Made by a program: the position numbers and the translations under genes
The notes under the pieces: model-generated
What the model was told of the DNA's origin: nothing
The model's input: only the letters and a program-made list of their open reading frames with translations
Databases searched by the model: none
Assembly: GCA_963678705.1 (NCBI GenBank)
Contig: OY783219.1
Span: 8,308,001-8,372,000, forward strand
Source of the DNA: Panorpa germanica
Taxonomy: Eukaryota; Arthropoda; Insecta; Mecoptera; Panorpidae
DNA length: 64,000 nt
Direction: 5' to 3'
Shown here: in pieces, positions 47,734 through 54,625 of the stretch
Position numbering within the stretch: the stretch's first letter is position 1
Layout of the letters: each line of letters starts with the position of its first letter

Positions 47734-47935
47734 TGTTACGAATTTGCGGGCGTCTGAGGATACAAAAATTATAGTTATAAACTAATTAGCAGAAAAGGTT
47801 ACGCATCCCTGCACAAATATCTAGACGTTTCGATAACGAGGCTGTTTACTAGTTGGCGCATAACTTGATACGCGTGTGTGTTCCTGGAAATGAATATAAA
47901 CAACTGCATACCAACTGGTGTTATTGTTTACATGT

Positions 47936-48036
47936 GAATATTCTAGAATCAAATACTACGCGTATGGACAGGAACGTCATAGAAATAGTCGGAAGGTCAA
48001 ACAGCGTATTTGAGTAAATATAGGAATGTTCTGGAA
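47936..48036 (+). promoter_or_regulatory. two heat-shock elements in U3
   Basis: GAAtaTTCtaGAA at 47936-47948 and GAAtgTTCtgGAA at 48024-48036. Each has three alternating nGAAn units at exact 5-bp spacing, the minimal functional binding site for the heat-shock factor trimer. They sit about 136 and 48 bp upstream of the TATA box, a normal distance for transcriptional activation. Both recur in the 3' LTR (54182-54194, 54270-54282). Heat or stress induction is inferred from this. Confidence 0.65.
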
Positions 48037-48083
48037 AGTCAAAAGTGTCGAGACCAGGGGAATTGTACTGCGTAAACCGCTAA

Positions 48084-48120
48084 TATAAAAAGGAGCAAAG
48101 CATTGCGTCGCGAGTCAGTT
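48084..48120 (+). promoter_or_regulatory. LTR core promoter (TATA plus initiator)
   Basis: TATAAAA at 48084-48090 and TCAGTT, matching the arthropod initiator TCAKTY, at 48115-48120. The spacing from the TATA start to the initiator A (48117) is 33 bp, right for RNA polymerase II. Confidence 0.7.
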
Positions 48121-48381
48121 TTTACAACAGCAGTCAGACCGCAAGAAAACATCAGCCAGTAAAACTAATAAGTAAAATAATTAACCGTAATAATTGTAAA
48201 GTAGTTGTAATTGTTTTTGTGTTAATAAATAAAGTTTATAAAAGTGTCAATCCTTCTTTTAATTTGAATTGTGGCTATTTTTAAATATAAGTTACAACGC
48301 GACTAAATAGTGTAAACAATTGCTTCCGCTCGGCAATCAACTAAAAAGAACCCCGTCGTCGCCAAGTAAAATTGTAACATT

Positions 48382-48399
48382 TGGTGTCAGAAGTGGGAT
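48382..48399 (+). promoter_or_regulatory. primer binding site, tRNA-Leu
   Basis: TGGTGTCAGAAGTGGGAT, two bases after the LTR, is complementary to the CCA-ending 3' end of a leucine tRNA of the ...ATCCCACTTCTGACA type. It would prime minus-strand DNA synthesis. The tRNA identity comes from memory of the conserved tRNA-Leu acceptor and T-arm sequence. Confidence 0.8.
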
Positions 48400-48642: not shown

Positions 48643-49908
48643 ATGGAGGCAGACTTATTAAAAGAACTTAGAGAAATGATGCTAGTGCAAGCTGCAAAGG
48701 CCGAAAAGTCTAAAGAAGAGATGTTCGAGAAATTTCAAGAACAGGCTGAAAAGTCTAAAGAAGAAAATGTTGAAATAAGAAAAATAATTCAAGAACAGAC
48801 AGAACGGTCTAAAGAAGACATATTCGAGAAGTTTCAAGAACAGACAGATGCATTACAAAAACAGAATTTAGCGTTCCAAATGCAGTTGCAAGCTGTAGAA
48901 GAAGCTTGCAGAGGATCCAGAAAGGAGTTAGAAACGCGTATAAATGAAATAGAGGATAGTGTGACACAAAGTCTCCAATCGGTTACAATACGACAGGAGC
49001 TGACGGAGACGAAAATTCAGGAGATAGAAGAACGCGTAGAACTCGTCCAGAAAAATGGGAAGCAACTAGCAGGAGCGCAGTTAACACAACTTGCCGATAG
49101 AGTGCAAGTTTTAGAAAACTCTCAAGGTTGCGGCAACCCTACGATTGCGAAAACCAGCACTATCAAGCCAGCCCCCTACGATGGAACAATCTCTTGGCAG
49201 GAATATGAGGTGCAATTCACAGCCATAGCGGAATTCAATGGCTGGAGTGACAGGGATTGTGCAGGCCAGTTAGCGGCCATGCTACGGGGTTCGGCTCTAA
49301 TCGCTTTCCAAAATATGAACCCGGACGAGCGGCGTAGCTATACGGCTCTTAAAGCAATGCTAAGCCAGCGGTATGGGGAAGAAAGTCTCGCACCTCTGTA
49401 CTGGGCGCAGCTGGTGAACAGGAGACAAGCTCCGGGAGAAAGGCTAGCAGACCTGGCGACAGATATCGAACGATTAGTAAACCGTGCTGCAGGAAAAGCC
49501 CCCAGAGAAACACTAGGAAATTGGGAGGTACAATACTTCGCTAACGCTGTCCGAGAGCGCAGAATAAAGGAGGCCATTTTATTGGCTAAGCCGAAGAACA
49601 TAAACGAGGCCCTGGCCGCTGCGCTTCAAATGGAAACTGTCAGCCATATTCCCGATGTGAGCCGTATAAGGAGCGCCACTACATCTCCCTCTCATACCAC
49701 CCCTGCTATGGACGAGGTGTTTCGGCGATTGGCGGATCTCGAAGAACGAAACCGGCACCGCTATAATCCAGGAATTTCAAGAGGTCGGCAATGGACTTAC
49801 AACAGGGGAAGAAACCCACCTGTGAATGGTACAAGCTCGGAAAGAAGACCCTCGACATCGGCTGTCAATGTGAATCGGCAGTCGGGAAACGAGTCGCAGG
49901 CAGCCTAA
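48643..49908 (+). CDS. gag: Gag polyprotein
   Basis: A 421-residue structural protein that would form the virus-like particle. Residues 1-160 are charged and strongly coiled-coil in character, with a repeated EKSKEEMFEKFQEQ-like segment (21-34, 36-52, 54-67). Residues 178-335 form a capsid-type retrotransposon Gag domain (PYDGTISWQEYEVQF, then CAGQLAAMLRGSAL, QRYGEESL). Residues 370-396 are Arg/Gly/Asn-rich and probably bind RNA. No CCHC zinc knuckle is present in this frame, which is unusual. The start is the first Met of the frame, 40 bp after the heat-shock array. The frame ends at a TAA (49906-49908) just after a -1 frameshift site that leads into pol. Confidence 0.9.
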   Translation: MEADLLKELREMMLVQAAKAEKSKEEMFEKFQEQAEKSKEENVEIRKIIQEQTERSKEDIFEKFQEQTDALQKQNLAFQMQLQAVEEACRGSRKELETRINEIEDSVTQSLQSVTIRQELTETKIQEIEERVELVQKNGKQLAGAQLTQLADRVQVLENSQGCGNPTIAKTSTIKPAPYDGTISWQEYEVQFTAIAEFNGWSDRDCAGQLAAMLRGSALIAFQNMNPDERRSYTALKAMLSQRYGEESLAPLYWAQLVNRRQAPGERLADLATDIERLVNRAAGKAPRETLGNWEVQYFANAVRERRIKEAILLAKPKNINEALAAALQMETVSHIPDVSRIRSATTSPSHTTPAMDEVFRRLADLEERNRHRYNPGISRGRQWTYNRGRNPPVNGTSSERRPSTSAVNVNRQSGNESQAA

Positions 49909-52900
49909 TGGGGACAACTCTGCCTGCTGTTCCGATCAAGAGTCCCCACATTACAGCAGTCGGAACAATAGGAGGAGTAAATAGGGGACCAATTGTGATG
50001 GGATATATGGAAGACCGGCCATGCAAATTTTTGATTGATACTGGTGCTACGCAATCACTAGTCGGATTGGAATTCATTAGACGACAAGAATTTACGAAGC
50101 AGATCATCGCACCAGCAGCTCCCATTGTATTGCGAGCAATTACTGGAGATACGGCACCCGTTTGCGGAAAAATTAAATTAAAGATCAGGTTGGGCCACAT
50201 GATCCAAAACTTTGTATTCCTCGTAGCACCAATAGAGGAAGAATGTGTTCTGGGTTACGATTGGATGTCCTCAATAAACTGTACAATTTTTCCAAGAGCT
50301 AAAATTATACAAATAGGAAGAGACCAGCTTGAGCTGCTAAAAGATGACACTGAAGAAACTCTAAATATCAGAACGAGTATTACAAAAGACATACAGCCCT
50401 CAGATGATAAAGAAGTGACCCTTCCGAACCACCTACAGGACGTCTATGAGAAGTCAAATAAAAACTTAACTCTTGAAGAATCTCATGACCTGAAGATGGT
50501 ACTACAAGACAACCAGGACATTTTTTCATCGGGAATAGAAGACGTGGGACACACGACATTAGTGCAACACCCAATAAAGGTAGGAGACGCTAGACCAATT
50601 AAACAACCTGCACGAAGACTGCCATGGGGACAAGAAGAGGAAGTGGACGCCATGGTGGATCAAATGCTGCGAGACGGAATAATAGAACCCTCAACAAGTC
50701 CGTGGGCATCGCCGATAGTACTAGTAAAGAAAAAAGACGGAACGAAGCGATTCTGCGTGGACTACAGGAGACTGAACGATGTCACGCTAAAGGATGCATA
50801 CCCGTTGCCTCGTATCGATAGCCTTTTTAGTGTATTAAACGGGTCTAAATACTTCTCCACTCTTGATCTCCGGAGCGGATATTGGCAAGTAGAAGTAAAA
50901 CAAGAAGATAGGGAGAAAACAGCGTTCACGACCGGGAAAGGTCTGTGGCAGTTTCGAGTAATGCCTTTTGGTCTATGTAATGCCCCCGCAACATTTGAAC
51001 GATTAATGGATAGCGTCTTAAAAGACTTACCTCCGGGAACATGCCTCGTGTATCTGGACGACATAGTGGTGCTTGGCAAAGATGCTAGAAGCCAAATAGA
51101 TAATTTGAAAATTGTATTTCAACGATTACGAACAGCAAACCTTAAATTAAACCCAAAGAAATGCAACCTTTGTGCCGAGCAAATAAGATATCTGGGACAT
51201 GTCGTCACTAGAAATGGAGTATCTACGGACCCGGAAAAAGTGAAAGCTATTCAGACCTGGCCGACACCCACCAACCTGTCGGAAGTGCGAAGTTTCCTTG
51301 GGTTATGTGCTTATTACAGAAAATTTGTTTCAAACTTTGCGAAGATTGCAAAACCGCTGTATGAACTTACGGAGAAACCAACTACGAAGAGGCGACCCAT
51401 TGTGTGGACACCATCATGTGAAGACTCGTTCAACCAATTAAAGGGAAAGCTTACAAATGCACCGATCCTTGCTTTTCCCCAACGTGTAGGCGAATTTATA
51501 TTGGATACGGATGCATCGCATACCGGAATGGGAGCAGTACTCTCACAAATACAACAAGGCGAAGAATGTGTAATAGAATACTTCAGTAGGGTATTCTCGA
51601 AGGCCGAACAGAATTACTGTGTTACTCGAAAGGAACTACTGGCAGTCGTTAAAGCTCTAAAACAGTTTAGACACTATTTGTGGGGCCAGCCATTTCGAAT
51701 TCGTACCGACCACGCTTCGTTAACCTGGTTAACAAATTTTAAGGAGCCTGAGGGACAACTAGCACGTTGGCTACAACAGATAAGCGAATACCAGTATAAA
51801 ATCGAGTACCGGCCAGGACGTCAACACGCAAATGCAGATGCATTGTCTAGAAGACCATGTGCAACCAATGGATGTGACCACTGTGAACGTAAGGAGGCTA
51901 AACAGGAGCCCGAATGCGTACCCGATGAGGCAATACTTATACGACATACTCAAGTCTATTTACAAAACGGTCGATTACCTCTTAACTATGATGATGCCGA
52001 AAAATGGGATCCCGACACATTAGTAAAAGCAGAAATCAAAATGAACATGGAATACATCAGGGATGACCTATTCTTAGCACCCTCCGAATACTCGTTAGCC
52101 CATTGTGTCGCCGAAGACCTGCACATGAGTAAAGGTATTGCAGTAACATTCAAGGAGAAATTCGGAGATCTGAGAAAGCTTCGAGAACAACAGAGAAAGG
52201 TAGGAGAAGTTGCAGTTCTAGAAAAGGATGGAAGATTTATTTATTATCTGATTACAAAACGGAGGAGTTCCGGAAAACCAACGTACCATGATCTATGGCA
52301 ATCATTGGTATCACTACGAGAACACATCCTGCAGCAACAAGTAAAGAAGTTAGCCATTCCGCAAATAGGTTGCGGACACGATCATTTGACGTGGGCACAT
52401 GTAGAGCGTCTGCTGAGATACGTGTTCTACGATTTGGAGCTCAACATTCAGGTTTATATACCAGAACCGGTAGCAACCGTTCCCATAAGATACTTGACGC
52501 GGGCGAAAGCTAAAACCGAAGAAACTCAAGTAACAGAGAATAATGATTCGCCTCCACCTGCAGATAACTCGATTCAAACGACTGATCAAGCAGAAGATGA
52601 ACTGGGTGACATCGTAGGTGAAGCACAGAAAGAAGATGAAGATCTGGCACTCATTGCGGCATGGAAAAAGACAGGAATTAGACCTCAATGGCCAGAGGTA
52701 TCAGCCTATAGTCCTCGTGTAAAAGAATATTGGTCTATGTGGAACTGTTTAGAACTTCACGACGGAAGGCTATATCGGTTGTGGCATTTTGTAGACGACA
52801 GGCCACCCATTCGACAACTGATAGTACCTAATAAACTAGTCCCGGATATATTGAAACAAGTACACGATAGTTTCTCAGGTGGACATTTCGGGGTGCATAA

Positions 52901-53936
52901 AACACTAGAGAAGATACGGCAAAGGTGGTACTGGCCCCGTTGCGGAGCCTCAGTAAATCGTTGGTGTCGAAATTGTGACACTTGTACGGCCAGTAAAGGA
53001 CCCCGGCAGAGAAATCGAGGACCTATGCATACCTACACGGTGGGAGCACCGTTCGAAAGAGTTGGAATGGACATTTTAGGACCACTGCCACGGAGCCGAA
53101 CCGGCAATAAATATGTGTTGATCGTGGTGGATTACTTCACTAAATGGCCTGAAATACTACCTATTCCGAATCAAGAAGCGATCACAGTTGCAAAAGTCTT
53201 TGTGCAAGAAGTAGTATCGCGTTATGGAGTTCCCCGAGAGCTACATTCGGATCAAGGAAGAAATTTTGAAGCCGCCGTATTCCAACAGATTTCGAAACTT
53301 CTAGGCATGAATAAAACCCGAACTACACCATTACATCCGCAGTCGAACGGCATGGTTGAAAGACTAAATCGGACGATAGAGGAATACCTGTCGAAATTTG
53401 TCCATACTAACCAAGACAATTGGGACGAGTTGATACCTCTGTTTCTACTGGCATATCGGTCAGCGGTGCACGAAGCAACACGGCAGACTCCAGCCGCTAT
53501 GCTAATGGGACGTGAACTCAGGTTACCCTGTGACCTGATGTACGGACCTCCTCCCGAAAGAAAGTTTAGTGGCAACGAAGAATACTGCGAAACCCTAGCG
53601 CAAGAATTAGAAAAAATCCACAAACTTGCGAGAGAACGCCTTCAGTTAGCGACGGATCGCTCGAAAACGCGTTATGATTGTGGAAAACAAAGTCAGCGTT
53701 TTTCCAGAGGTGATGCGGTATGGCTCTACTATCCTAAGAAGAAGATAGGACGAAGCCCTAAACTACAAGCCAAATGGGAAGGACCGTATTTAATATCGGC
53801 TGTCATTTCGGACGTGGTCTACAAAGTGCAGAGATCAGCCCGAGGAAAATGCATGATTGTTCACCGAGACCGACTCGCAAAGTACGAGGGTGAAAATGCT
53901 CCGGACTGGGAGTTAACGGAATCAGCCGCCCGATGA
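49791..53936 (+). CDS. pol: Pol polyprotein with embedded macrodomain
   Basis: Residue numbers count from the Met at 49791, but translation probably enters by -1 frameshift near residue 34; the frame is open from 49767. Domains in order: aspartic protease (DTGA, 83-86); reverse transcriptase from about 277 (YLDD, 421-424); RNase H (D574, E615, D640); a macrodomain (751-890); an acidic Pro-containing linker (about 905-945); integrase zinc finger (H1025, H1032, C1062, C1065); integrase core D1094, D1154, E1190 (D-D-35-E); and a GPY motif at 1331. All key catalytic residues are present and there are no internal stops. The RNase H-to-integrase gap of about 335 residues is much longer than usual because of the macrodomain. 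The frame ends at a TGA (53934-53936), 30 bp before the polypurine tract. No env follows. Confidence 0.96.
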   Translation: MDLQQGKKPTCEWYKLGKKTLDIGCQCESAVGKRVAGSLMGTTLPAVPIKSPHITAVGTIGGVNRGPIVMGYMEDRPCKFLIDTGATQSLVGLEFIRRQEFTKQIIAPAAPIVLRAITGDTAPVCGKIKLKIRLGHMIQNFVFLVAPIEEECVLGYDWMSSINCTIFPRAKIIQIGRDQLELLKDDTEETLNIRTSITKDIQPSDDKEVTLPNHLQDVYEKSNKNLTLEESHDLKMVLQDNQDIFSSGIEDVGHTTLVQHPIKVGDARPIKQPARRLPWGQEEEVDAMVDQMLRDGIIEPSTSPWASPIVLVKKKDGTKRFCVDYRRLNDVTLKDAYPLPRIDSLFSVLNGSKYFSTLDLRSGYWQVEVKQEDREKTAFTTGKGLWQFRVMPFGLCNAPATFERLMDSVLKDLPPGTCLVYLDDIVVLGKDARSQIDNLKIVFQRLRTANLKLNPKKCNLCAEQIRYLGHVVTRNGVSTDPEKVKAIQTWPTPTNLSEVRSFLGLCAYYRKFVSNFAKIAKPLYELTEKPTTKRRPIVWTPSCEDSFNQLKGKLTNAPILAFPQRVGEFILDTDASHTGMGAVLSQIQQGEECVIEYFSRVFSKAEQNYCVTRKELLAVVKALKQFRHYLWGQPFRIRTDHASLTWLTNFKEPEGQLARWLQQISEYQYKIEYRPGRQHANADALSRRPCATNGCDHCERKEAKQEPECVPDEAILIRHTQVYLQNGRLPLNYDDAEKWDPDTLVKAEIKMNMEYIRDDLFLAPSEYSLAHCVAEDLHMSKGIAVTFKEKFGDLRKLREQQRKVGEVAVLEKDGRFIYYLITKRRSSGKPTYHDLWQSLVSLREHILQQQVKKLAIPQIGCGHDHLTWAHVERLLRYVFYDLELNIQVYIPEPVATVPIRYLTRAKAKTEETQVTENNDSPPPADNSIQTTDQAEDELGDIVGEAQKEDEDLALIAAWKKTGIRPQWPEVSAYSPRVKEYWSMWNCLELHDGRLYRLWHFVDDRPPIRQLIVPNKLVPDILKQVHDSFSGGHFGVHKTLEKIRQRWYWPRCGASVNRWCRNCDTCTASKGPRQRNRGPMHTYTVGAPFERVGMDILGPLPRSRTGNKYVLIVVDYFTKWPEILPIPNQEAITVAKVFVQEVVSRYGVPRELHSDQGRNFEAAVFQQISKLLGMNKTRTTPLHPQSNGMVERLNRTIEEYLSKFVHTNQDNWDELIPLFLLAYRSAVHEATRQTPAAMLMGRELRLPCDLMYGPPPERKFSGNEEYCETLAQELEKIHKLARERLQLATDRSKTRYDCGKQSQRFSRGDAVWLYYPKKKIGRSPKLQAKWEGPYLISAVISDVVYKVQRSARGKCMIVHRDRLAKYEGENAPDWELTESAAR
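49884..49948 (+). promoter_or_regulatory. -1 ribosomal frameshift signal with pseudoknot
   Basis: The heptamer G GGA AAC (49884-49890) is in the correct gag phase for a -1 slip (X XXY YYZ) and lies 15 bases before the gag stop codon. After a 5-base spacer, GCAGGCAG (49896-49903) pairs perfectly with CTGCCTGC (49920-49927). The loop sequence TGGGGAC (49909-49915) pairs perfectly with GTCCCCA (49942-49948), making an H-type pseudoknot with 8-bp and 7-bp stems. The same heptamer is used by several retroviruses. Slippage would join Gag through Asn416 to the pol frame at Arg34 of the open frame that starts at 49791. Confidence 0.85.
52041..52463 (+). other. TARG1/OARD1-type macrodomain within Pol
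   Basis: Residues 751-890 of the pol frame align end to end with the small macrodomain hydrolase OARD1 (TARG1/C6orf130): EYIRDDLFLAPSEYSLAHC, then GIAVTFKEKFG, YYLITKRRSSGKPTY, IPQIGCGHDHLTW, and a final IQVYIP strand. The family's nucleophilic lysine (human K84) corresponds to K823 and its catalytic aspartate (human D125) to D864. TARG1 removes ADP-ribose from glutamate/aspartate and deacylates O-acetyl-ADP-ribose. The length of about 140 residues equals the free-standing enzyme. It is inferred to be an active hydrolase captured from a host gene; its role in the element is unknown. Other macrodomain classes fit less well because the K...GCGxD pattern is specific to this one. Confidence 0.9.
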
Positions 53937-53966
53937 AAATTATAAGCCCTCGGGACGAGCGCTTTT

Positions 53967-53979
53967 AAGAGGGGGAAAG
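53967..53979 (+). promoter_or_regulatory. polypurine tract
   Basis: AAGAGGGGGAAAG immediately upstream of the 3' LTR, the primer for plus-strand DNA synthesis. Confidence 0.9.
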
Positions 53980-54625
53980 TGTTACGAATTTGCGGGCGTC
54001 TGAGGATACAAAAATTATAGTTATAAACTAATTAGCAGAAAAGGTTACGCATCCCTGCACAAATATCTAGACGTTTCGATAACGAGGCTGTTTACTAGTT
54101 GGCGCATAACTTGATACGCGTGTGTGTTCCTGGAAATGAATATAAACAACTGCATACCAACTGGTGTTATTGTTTACATGTGAATATTCTAGAATCAAAT
54201 ACTACGCGTATGGACAGGAACGTCATAGAAATAGTCGGAAGGTCAAACAGCGTATTTGAGTAAATATAGGAATGTTCTGGAAAGTCAAAAGTGTCGAGAC
54301 CAGGGGAATTGTACTGCGTAAACCGCTAATATAAAAAGGAGCAAAGCATTGCGTCGCGAGTCAGTTTTTACAACAGCAGTCAGACCGCAAGAAAACATCA
54401 GCCAGTAAAACTAATAAGTAAAATAATTAACCGTAATAATTGTAAAGTAGTTGTAATTGTTTTTGTGTTAATAAATAAAGTTTATAAAAGTGTCAATCCT
54501 TCTTTTAATTTGAATTGTGGCTATTTTTAAATATAAGTTACAACGCGACTAAATAGTGTAAACAATTGCTTCCGCTCGGCAATCAACTAAAAAGAACCCC
54601 GTCGTCGCCAAGTAAAATTGTAACA
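53980..54625 (+). repeat. 3' LTR
   Basis: 646 bp, matching 47734-48379 base for base as far as I could read. It carries the same TATA box, heat-shock elements and AATAAA signals (about 54470-54479), where the element's RNA would be polyadenylated. Confidence 0.96.

Follow-up and report, generated by a model that had tools for sequence, protein, structure and literature searches.

A TARG1-type macrodomain inside the Pol of a recently active Ty3/Gypsy retrotransposon of Panorpa germanica

What would a retrotransposon gain from a domain related to enzymes that remove ADP-ribose? The question is raised by a stretch of 64,000 nucleotides of Panorpa germanica DNA (contig OY783219.1 of assembly GCA_963678705.1, positions 8,308,001 to 8,372,000, hereafter the window), in which a preliminary description had placed an OARD1/TARG1-class macrodomain between RNase H and integrase in the open pol frame of a Ty3/Gypsy element, with K823 and D864 in place. 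Sequence and predicted fold both bear this out. The domain matches human TARG1 with an E value of 6.2e-43 across 138 residues, at about 50% identity, and an overlay of its predicted structure on the human protein revealed a TARG1-like macrodomain fold, closest to TARG1 at 1.1 A. K823 is the equivalent of human K84 and D864 that of human residue 125, which is Asp in the PDB sequence but is printed as Glu125 in PMC7050489. Sequence, fold, copy number and selection support the assignment of this Pol domain to the TARG1 class with its catalytic residues kept. Its sequence marks the element as a Ty3/Gypsy long terminal repeat (LTR) retrotransposon that was recently active, and its Pol contains a captured, intact TARG1-type domain that is predicted to be an ADP-ribosyl hydrolase.

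The element has many relatives in its own genome. Searching the 464 Mb assembly with the window macrodomain returned at least 151 matches from 150 scored candidates, among which at least 38 reach 97% identity or more with a stop-free domain and at least 18 are surrounded by an open frame of 1389 codons. Twenty further copies were read and form, with the window copy, a set of 21 (family A); they were picked among the best domain matches, which biases the sample toward intact ones. Both LTRs were found in all 20, including the internal deletion copy L026. The LTR pair is free of differences in 11 of the 21 copies and carries at most two substitutions in 18, the others being L033 (3), L040 (5) and L039 (26). 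K823, D864 and the tested neighbouring motif residues are unchanged in every copy, and no copy has lost a codon of the domain. An artefact, be it a retrocopy of the host TARG1 in one element copy or a misassembly, is refuted by these complete domains, by the spread of the copies over many contigs and by a separate protein record, P0011, with the same architecture.

The same copies record the selection acting on Pol. The ratio of nonsynonymous to synonymous polymorphism (pN/pS), obtained with a codon bootstrap from 20 copies (L030 excluded), is 0.205 (0.092-0.455) for the macrodomain, 0.081 (0.040-0.156) for the reverse transcriptase (RT), 0.096 (0.037-0.210) for RNase H, 0.154 (0.084-0.262) for integrase and 0.312 (0.144-0.801) for protease. 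The linker preceding the macrodomain, at 0.189 (0.082-0.438), is at least as constrained as the domain itself, and the linker following it stands at 0.621 (0.284-1.482). The macrodomain is under purifying selection in many young copies, which contradicts the one-off insertion with relaxed codons that had been named as the alternative.

Outside this genome, other Gypsy Pols carry the domain as well. With Pol residues 280-1381 as the query, a protein search yielded 5961 proteins. Among the best 120 of them, which were examined, 19 gave a macrodomain match and the other 101 gave none, in a ranking that favours carriers since the query includes the domain. P0011 has the domain between RNase H and integrase, as in the window; the 18 other carriers have it C-terminal of the integrase. 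Ten of these 18 display a CCCH-type motif near the C-terminus, and a Pfam scan of five C-terminal carriers agreed on a CCCH finger in the three having the motif; the Pfam Macro cut-off was reached in four of the five and missed by P0019 and by P0011. Among the 17 post-integrase carriers that can be read (P0031 ends inside the domain), Lys is kept in 16 and Asp in 15. Domain-less Gypsy Pols, for instance those annotated 'transposon 412', are also found among the best 120, sharing up to 60% identity with the window element in the core of Pol. When the macrodomain segment alone served as the protein query, no match appeared among 216 candidates, a weak null result given that Pols with the domain exist. 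Two carrier Pols, P0028 and P0032, have records assigned to Klebsiella pneumoniae and Erysiphe pulchra, and both are probably foreign DNA in those assemblies.

Further carrier families reside in the Panorpa genome. In family B (L041) the domain lies between protease and RT; at least about fifty matches at 40-49% identity were found, and for nine the surrounding frame is 1571-1638 codons long. Short B-type frames clustered on the contigs C98 and C1 were considered as domesticated genes and rejected, the two that were read (L068, L069) being shortened copies of family B. In family C1 (L042) the domain again sits between RNase H and integrase, and the one locus in which env was looked for, L042, contains an env open reading frame (ORF) matching Baculo_F (E 9e-50). 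C2, with a domain at 44% identity, and C3, at about 39%, are further members of family C; C3 has lost the GCG loop and retains Lys and Asp. The C3 copies L060-L062 also contain a second stretch (ISDEIVNNKKNQLIF...) between macrodomain and integrase, which may resemble a spacer of known env-bearing Gypsy elements. The last family, C4, was read in five copies (L063-L065, L070 and L071, at loci including C5:16712077 and C8:1964447). Its RNase H-integrase spacer matches human TARG1 over the whole domain (E 2.8e-14), shares 24-26% identity with the corresponding part of C1, and yields a structure model of lower confidence (predicted local distance difference test 72.7) in which strands and helices follow one another much as in the other domain models. 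C4 is an abundant, recently spread Gypsy family with a TARG1-derived spacer.

That other elements carry such a domain elsewhere in Pol suggests that it was taken repeatedly and is useful to its carriers, and its gain by Gypsy elements probably occurred more than once. With the macrodomain columns removed, a FastTree phylogeny of Pol (117 rows; the long rows P0009, P0010, P0012 and P0023 excluded) places the window and P0011 in one clade (100) and the 18 C-terminal Pols with P0078 in another (100), non-carriers lying between; an IQ-TREE analysis of 38 chosen rows, including ten of the 18 C-terminal Pols, recovered the same groupings. P0078, inside the C-terminal clade, is without the domain and ends exactly at its expected start, for which loss or truncation may equally account. 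For groups defined after data inspection, the approximately unbiased (AU) test of a single clade of window, P0011, ten C-terminal Pols and P0078 gave a p value of 0.0114, which is evidence for two gains, short of proof. When B and C1 were added, p was 4e-5 for a clade of window, P0011 and C1, and 0.0017 for all sampled carriers and P0078 as one clade, in a tree where the amino-acid composition of C1 is odd. Because the Pol trees are without non-carrier relatives of B and C, the separate gains of these families rest on domain position; segments of RNase H and integrase unite C1-C4 with weak support (76/78).

The trees of the macrodomain itself leave room for a smaller number of captures. Whatever the function, one or few host captures could have been followed by exchange of the domain among Gypsy elements, a scenario that we regard as possible but doubtful. 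The macrodomain tree alone is compatible with a single retroelement clade: in the larger tree, AU p values are 0.333 for all carriers as one clade, 0.126 for mid-Pol with C-terminal domains and 0.12 for mid-Pol with family C domains, and in the smaller tree they are 0.144 and 0.152. Furthermore, the larger tree joins the C1-C3 domains to those of the C-terminal Pols (97/81) though their Pols are distant, a grouping that may reflect exchange or long-branch attraction; the C4 branch is very long. Exchange is nevertheless disfavoured by the AU values of the Pol trees given above, by the different positions of the domain between carriers and by the smaller macrodomain tree, where the C-terminal domains stand apart (98/99) and the window domain pairs with the standalone protein P0001 (87/80). 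The macrodomain trees would thus fit repeated host capture as well as exchange between elements, and fix no capture number.

The preliminary description had proposed the capture of a host hydrolase. The capture by the element stands; this host is at most a candidate donor, the nearest standalone relative of the window domain being P0001, at 57% identity. The host TARG1 gene, on contig C19, was matched piecewise with two intron-like gaps; the domain of the element is uninterrupted, which would fit an RNA-mediated capture. An exact search for TTAGG arrays, as a pointer to an insect host, gave no match. Another standalone TARG1-like protein, P0003, has a basic, leucine-rich N-terminus that looks bZIP-like by eye.

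What could the domain do for these elements? We consider it probable that Gypsy elements gained an ADP-ribosyl hydrolase delivered with Pol against restrictive ADP-ribosylation, the activity being predicted and the target putative. Made within Gag-Pol, the domain would be packed into the particle and enter the nucleus with RT and integrase, so that Pol would bring an eraser to the sites of cDNA synthesis and integration. It would there strip ester-linked ADP-ribose placed by host writers (PARPs, perhaps a sirtuin) from proteins of the element, from its DNA or RNA ends or from silencing proteins at the element, the target being the least certain step, and copies would evade repression. The host has ten matches to PARP catalytic-domain exons across four contigs and its PARP set may be enlarged. 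Five PARP catalytic-domain matches lie at C21:34.9-39.8 Mb, and in four cases the open frame around the match spans 361-521 codons.

Published work offers several supports for such a role. TARG1 strips ADP-ribose from acidic-residue esters and from nucleic-acid ends (PMC7050489). In parp-1 null Drosophila, mobile elements tended upward, as did five of the eight significant ones; nine of ten further elements belong to the gypsy superfamily, yet stayed below significance, like the majority of gypsy-superfamily cases (PMC7712786). In mammals, L1 is silenced via mono-ADP-ribosylation of KAP1 by SIRT6 (PMC4695847). For the animal studied here, we infer the link from ADP-ribosylation to repression.

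On several other aspects, the evidence weighs against a hydrolase directed at host defence. The parp-1 effect on mobile elements is possibly indirect (PMC7712786). Insects are without most vertebrate PARPs and the macrodomains of insect-specific alphaviruses are inactive (PMC10221186), which speaks against simply carrying over the model known from RNA viruses. For the macrodomain, pN/pS has a broad interval that shares values with the interval of every neighbouring segment. Some C1 copies are decayed, L053 being without the Lys and L054-L056 broken past the GCG loop. Above all, C4 has lost the catalytic Asp, replaced by Thr in three and by Ser in two of the five copies read, with Lys kept; at least 150 C4 matches were found, and about 95 among the matches listed are in open frames of 1652 codons. 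This abundance in open frames indicates that loss of the catalytic Asp need not end the persistence of the domain, and since C4 keeps such a version, hydrolysis is not the sole possible use. The Asp-less C4 and the inactive macrodomains of insect-specific alphaviruses are the main doubts.

The domain might instead read ADP-ribose, with catalysis incidental: by tethering Pol or integrase to chromatin, histones or PARP1 modified with ADP-ribose, it would guide integration or nuclear retention. A comparable tether is the chromodomain present in certain Gypsy integrases. The domain adjoins the integrase in A, P0011 and C1, flanks it from the opposite side in the C-terminal group, and is retained without Asp in C4, which a tether function, original or secondary, fits better. 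For the carriers as a whole we find this reading unlikely: the catalytic Lys and Asp are both present in A, P0011, B, C1 (L042), C2 and most C-terminal Pols, and in family B the domain precedes RT, far from the integrase. Less likely by far is a structural spacer that only aids the folding or cleavage of Pol, despite the abundance of C4 and the tolerance of the domain at three Pol positions; the same domain family recurs at these three positions in four Pol contexts with an active site that is mostly kept, and a spacer has no need of K and D.

Taken over all carriers, the capture of a Pol-borne hydrolase may be extended into a broader proposal, toward which we lean with some hesitation. TARG1 would have entered Gypsy elements several times, the Pol contexts numbering at least three and probably four: RNase H-macrodomain-integrase in the window line; integrase-macrodomain in another clade, where ten of the 18 also have a CCCH finger; protease-macrodomain-RT in B; and RNase H-macrodomain-integrase in C, including an env-bearing element and, in C4, a spacer that would be an Asp-less TARG1. 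In these animals, hosts would accordingly use ADP-ribosylation as a general restraint on LTR elements, and the elements would have answered with erasers carried in Pol, some of which later became tethers.

Macrodomains act as counter-defence in some RNA viruses. Those of alphaviruses and coronaviruses counter host ADP-ribosylation, and the domain of the element may be likened to them by analogy. The human protein TARG1 (OARD1, C6orf130), an ALC1-like macrodomain hydrolase, has the same domain but is a cellular protein, whereas the version described here is embedded in a retrotransposon Pol. The macrodomain of the antitoxin DarG, a bacterial toxin-antitoxin partner, is 24-26% identical. The nearest precedent seems to be found in fish epsilon-like endogenous retroviruses, which also possess a macro domain (Basta et al. 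2009, cited in PMC4977317); as the latter source describes them, these are additional retroviral ORFs, outside a Gypsy Pol. By title and abstract start, among the matches listed, we found no description of a macrodomain in a Gypsy Pol in the open literature, and such elements may be catalogued elsewhere, for example in subscription literature or repeat databases.

If the proposed function is correct, an intact Pol-borne eraser in several Gypsy lineages makes ADP-ribosylation a candidate restriction of LTR elements. Why the loss of PARP-1 tends to release fly mobile elements becomes directly testable, and a single genome offers the comparison of families that keep the active site (A, B) with one that has lost it (C4).

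The features of the window copy are collected in the table. Its Ty3/Gypsy nature is evident from the protease-RT-RNase H-integrase order, the TG..CA ends of the LTRs, the primer binding site and the polypurine tract.

Table. Features of the family A element in the window (positions counted from the first nucleotide of the window).
Feature	Position	Strand	Remarks
5' LTR	47734..48379	+	646 bp, TGTT...AACA; 0/646 differences from 3' LTR
Primer binding site TGGTGTCAGAAGTGGGAT	48382..48399	+	starts two bases past 5' LTR
gag ORF	48643..49908	+	421 aa
GGGAAAC, likely -1 frameshift heptamer	49884..49890	+	gag phase; joins gag to pol
pol ORF	49791..53936	+	1381 aa; order: protease, RT, RNase H, TARG1 macrodomain, integrase
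TARG1/OARD1-class macrodomain	52026..52466	+	pol about 746-892; K823 and D864
Linker, macrodomain to integrase	52467..52625	+	pol about 893-945; poor conservation, pN/pS 0.62 (0.28-1.48)
Polypurine tract TTAAGAGGGGGAAAG	53965..53979	+	
3' LTR	53980..54625	+	646 bp; 43 bp past pol end (53936)

The primer binding site, presumably of tRNA-Leu type, occupies the matching position in each of the 20 other copies, some of which have altered bases there. The heptamer is at the corresponding place in 18 of these 20, L040 being one base off and L026 without the stretch. A Pfam scan of the gag ORF gave no match, and the short interval between pol and the 3' LTR holds no env ORF. A candidate target-site duplication, a match of 4 bp, flanks 16 of the 21 copies (ATAT in 13, in AT-rich surroundings) and is absent from the window copy.

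TARG1-like matches also turned up in other records. A scan of genome contigs gave eight loci in bacteria-titled records, scans of viral contigs found no relative, and 13 of 50,697 phage records contain a TARG1-like macrodomain match. Phage examples are AY682195.1 (15903-16340) and JN638751.1 (350133-350558), and the five listed have a hypothetical or number-only annotation.

The window copy (ends at 47734 and 54625) has the left flank ACATAC, which is also that of L027, a copy likewise without a target-site duplication. Further along the window, at about 56.6-62.6 kb on the minus strand, exon-type frames resembling an astacin metalloprotease were recognized by eye, in more than one copy.
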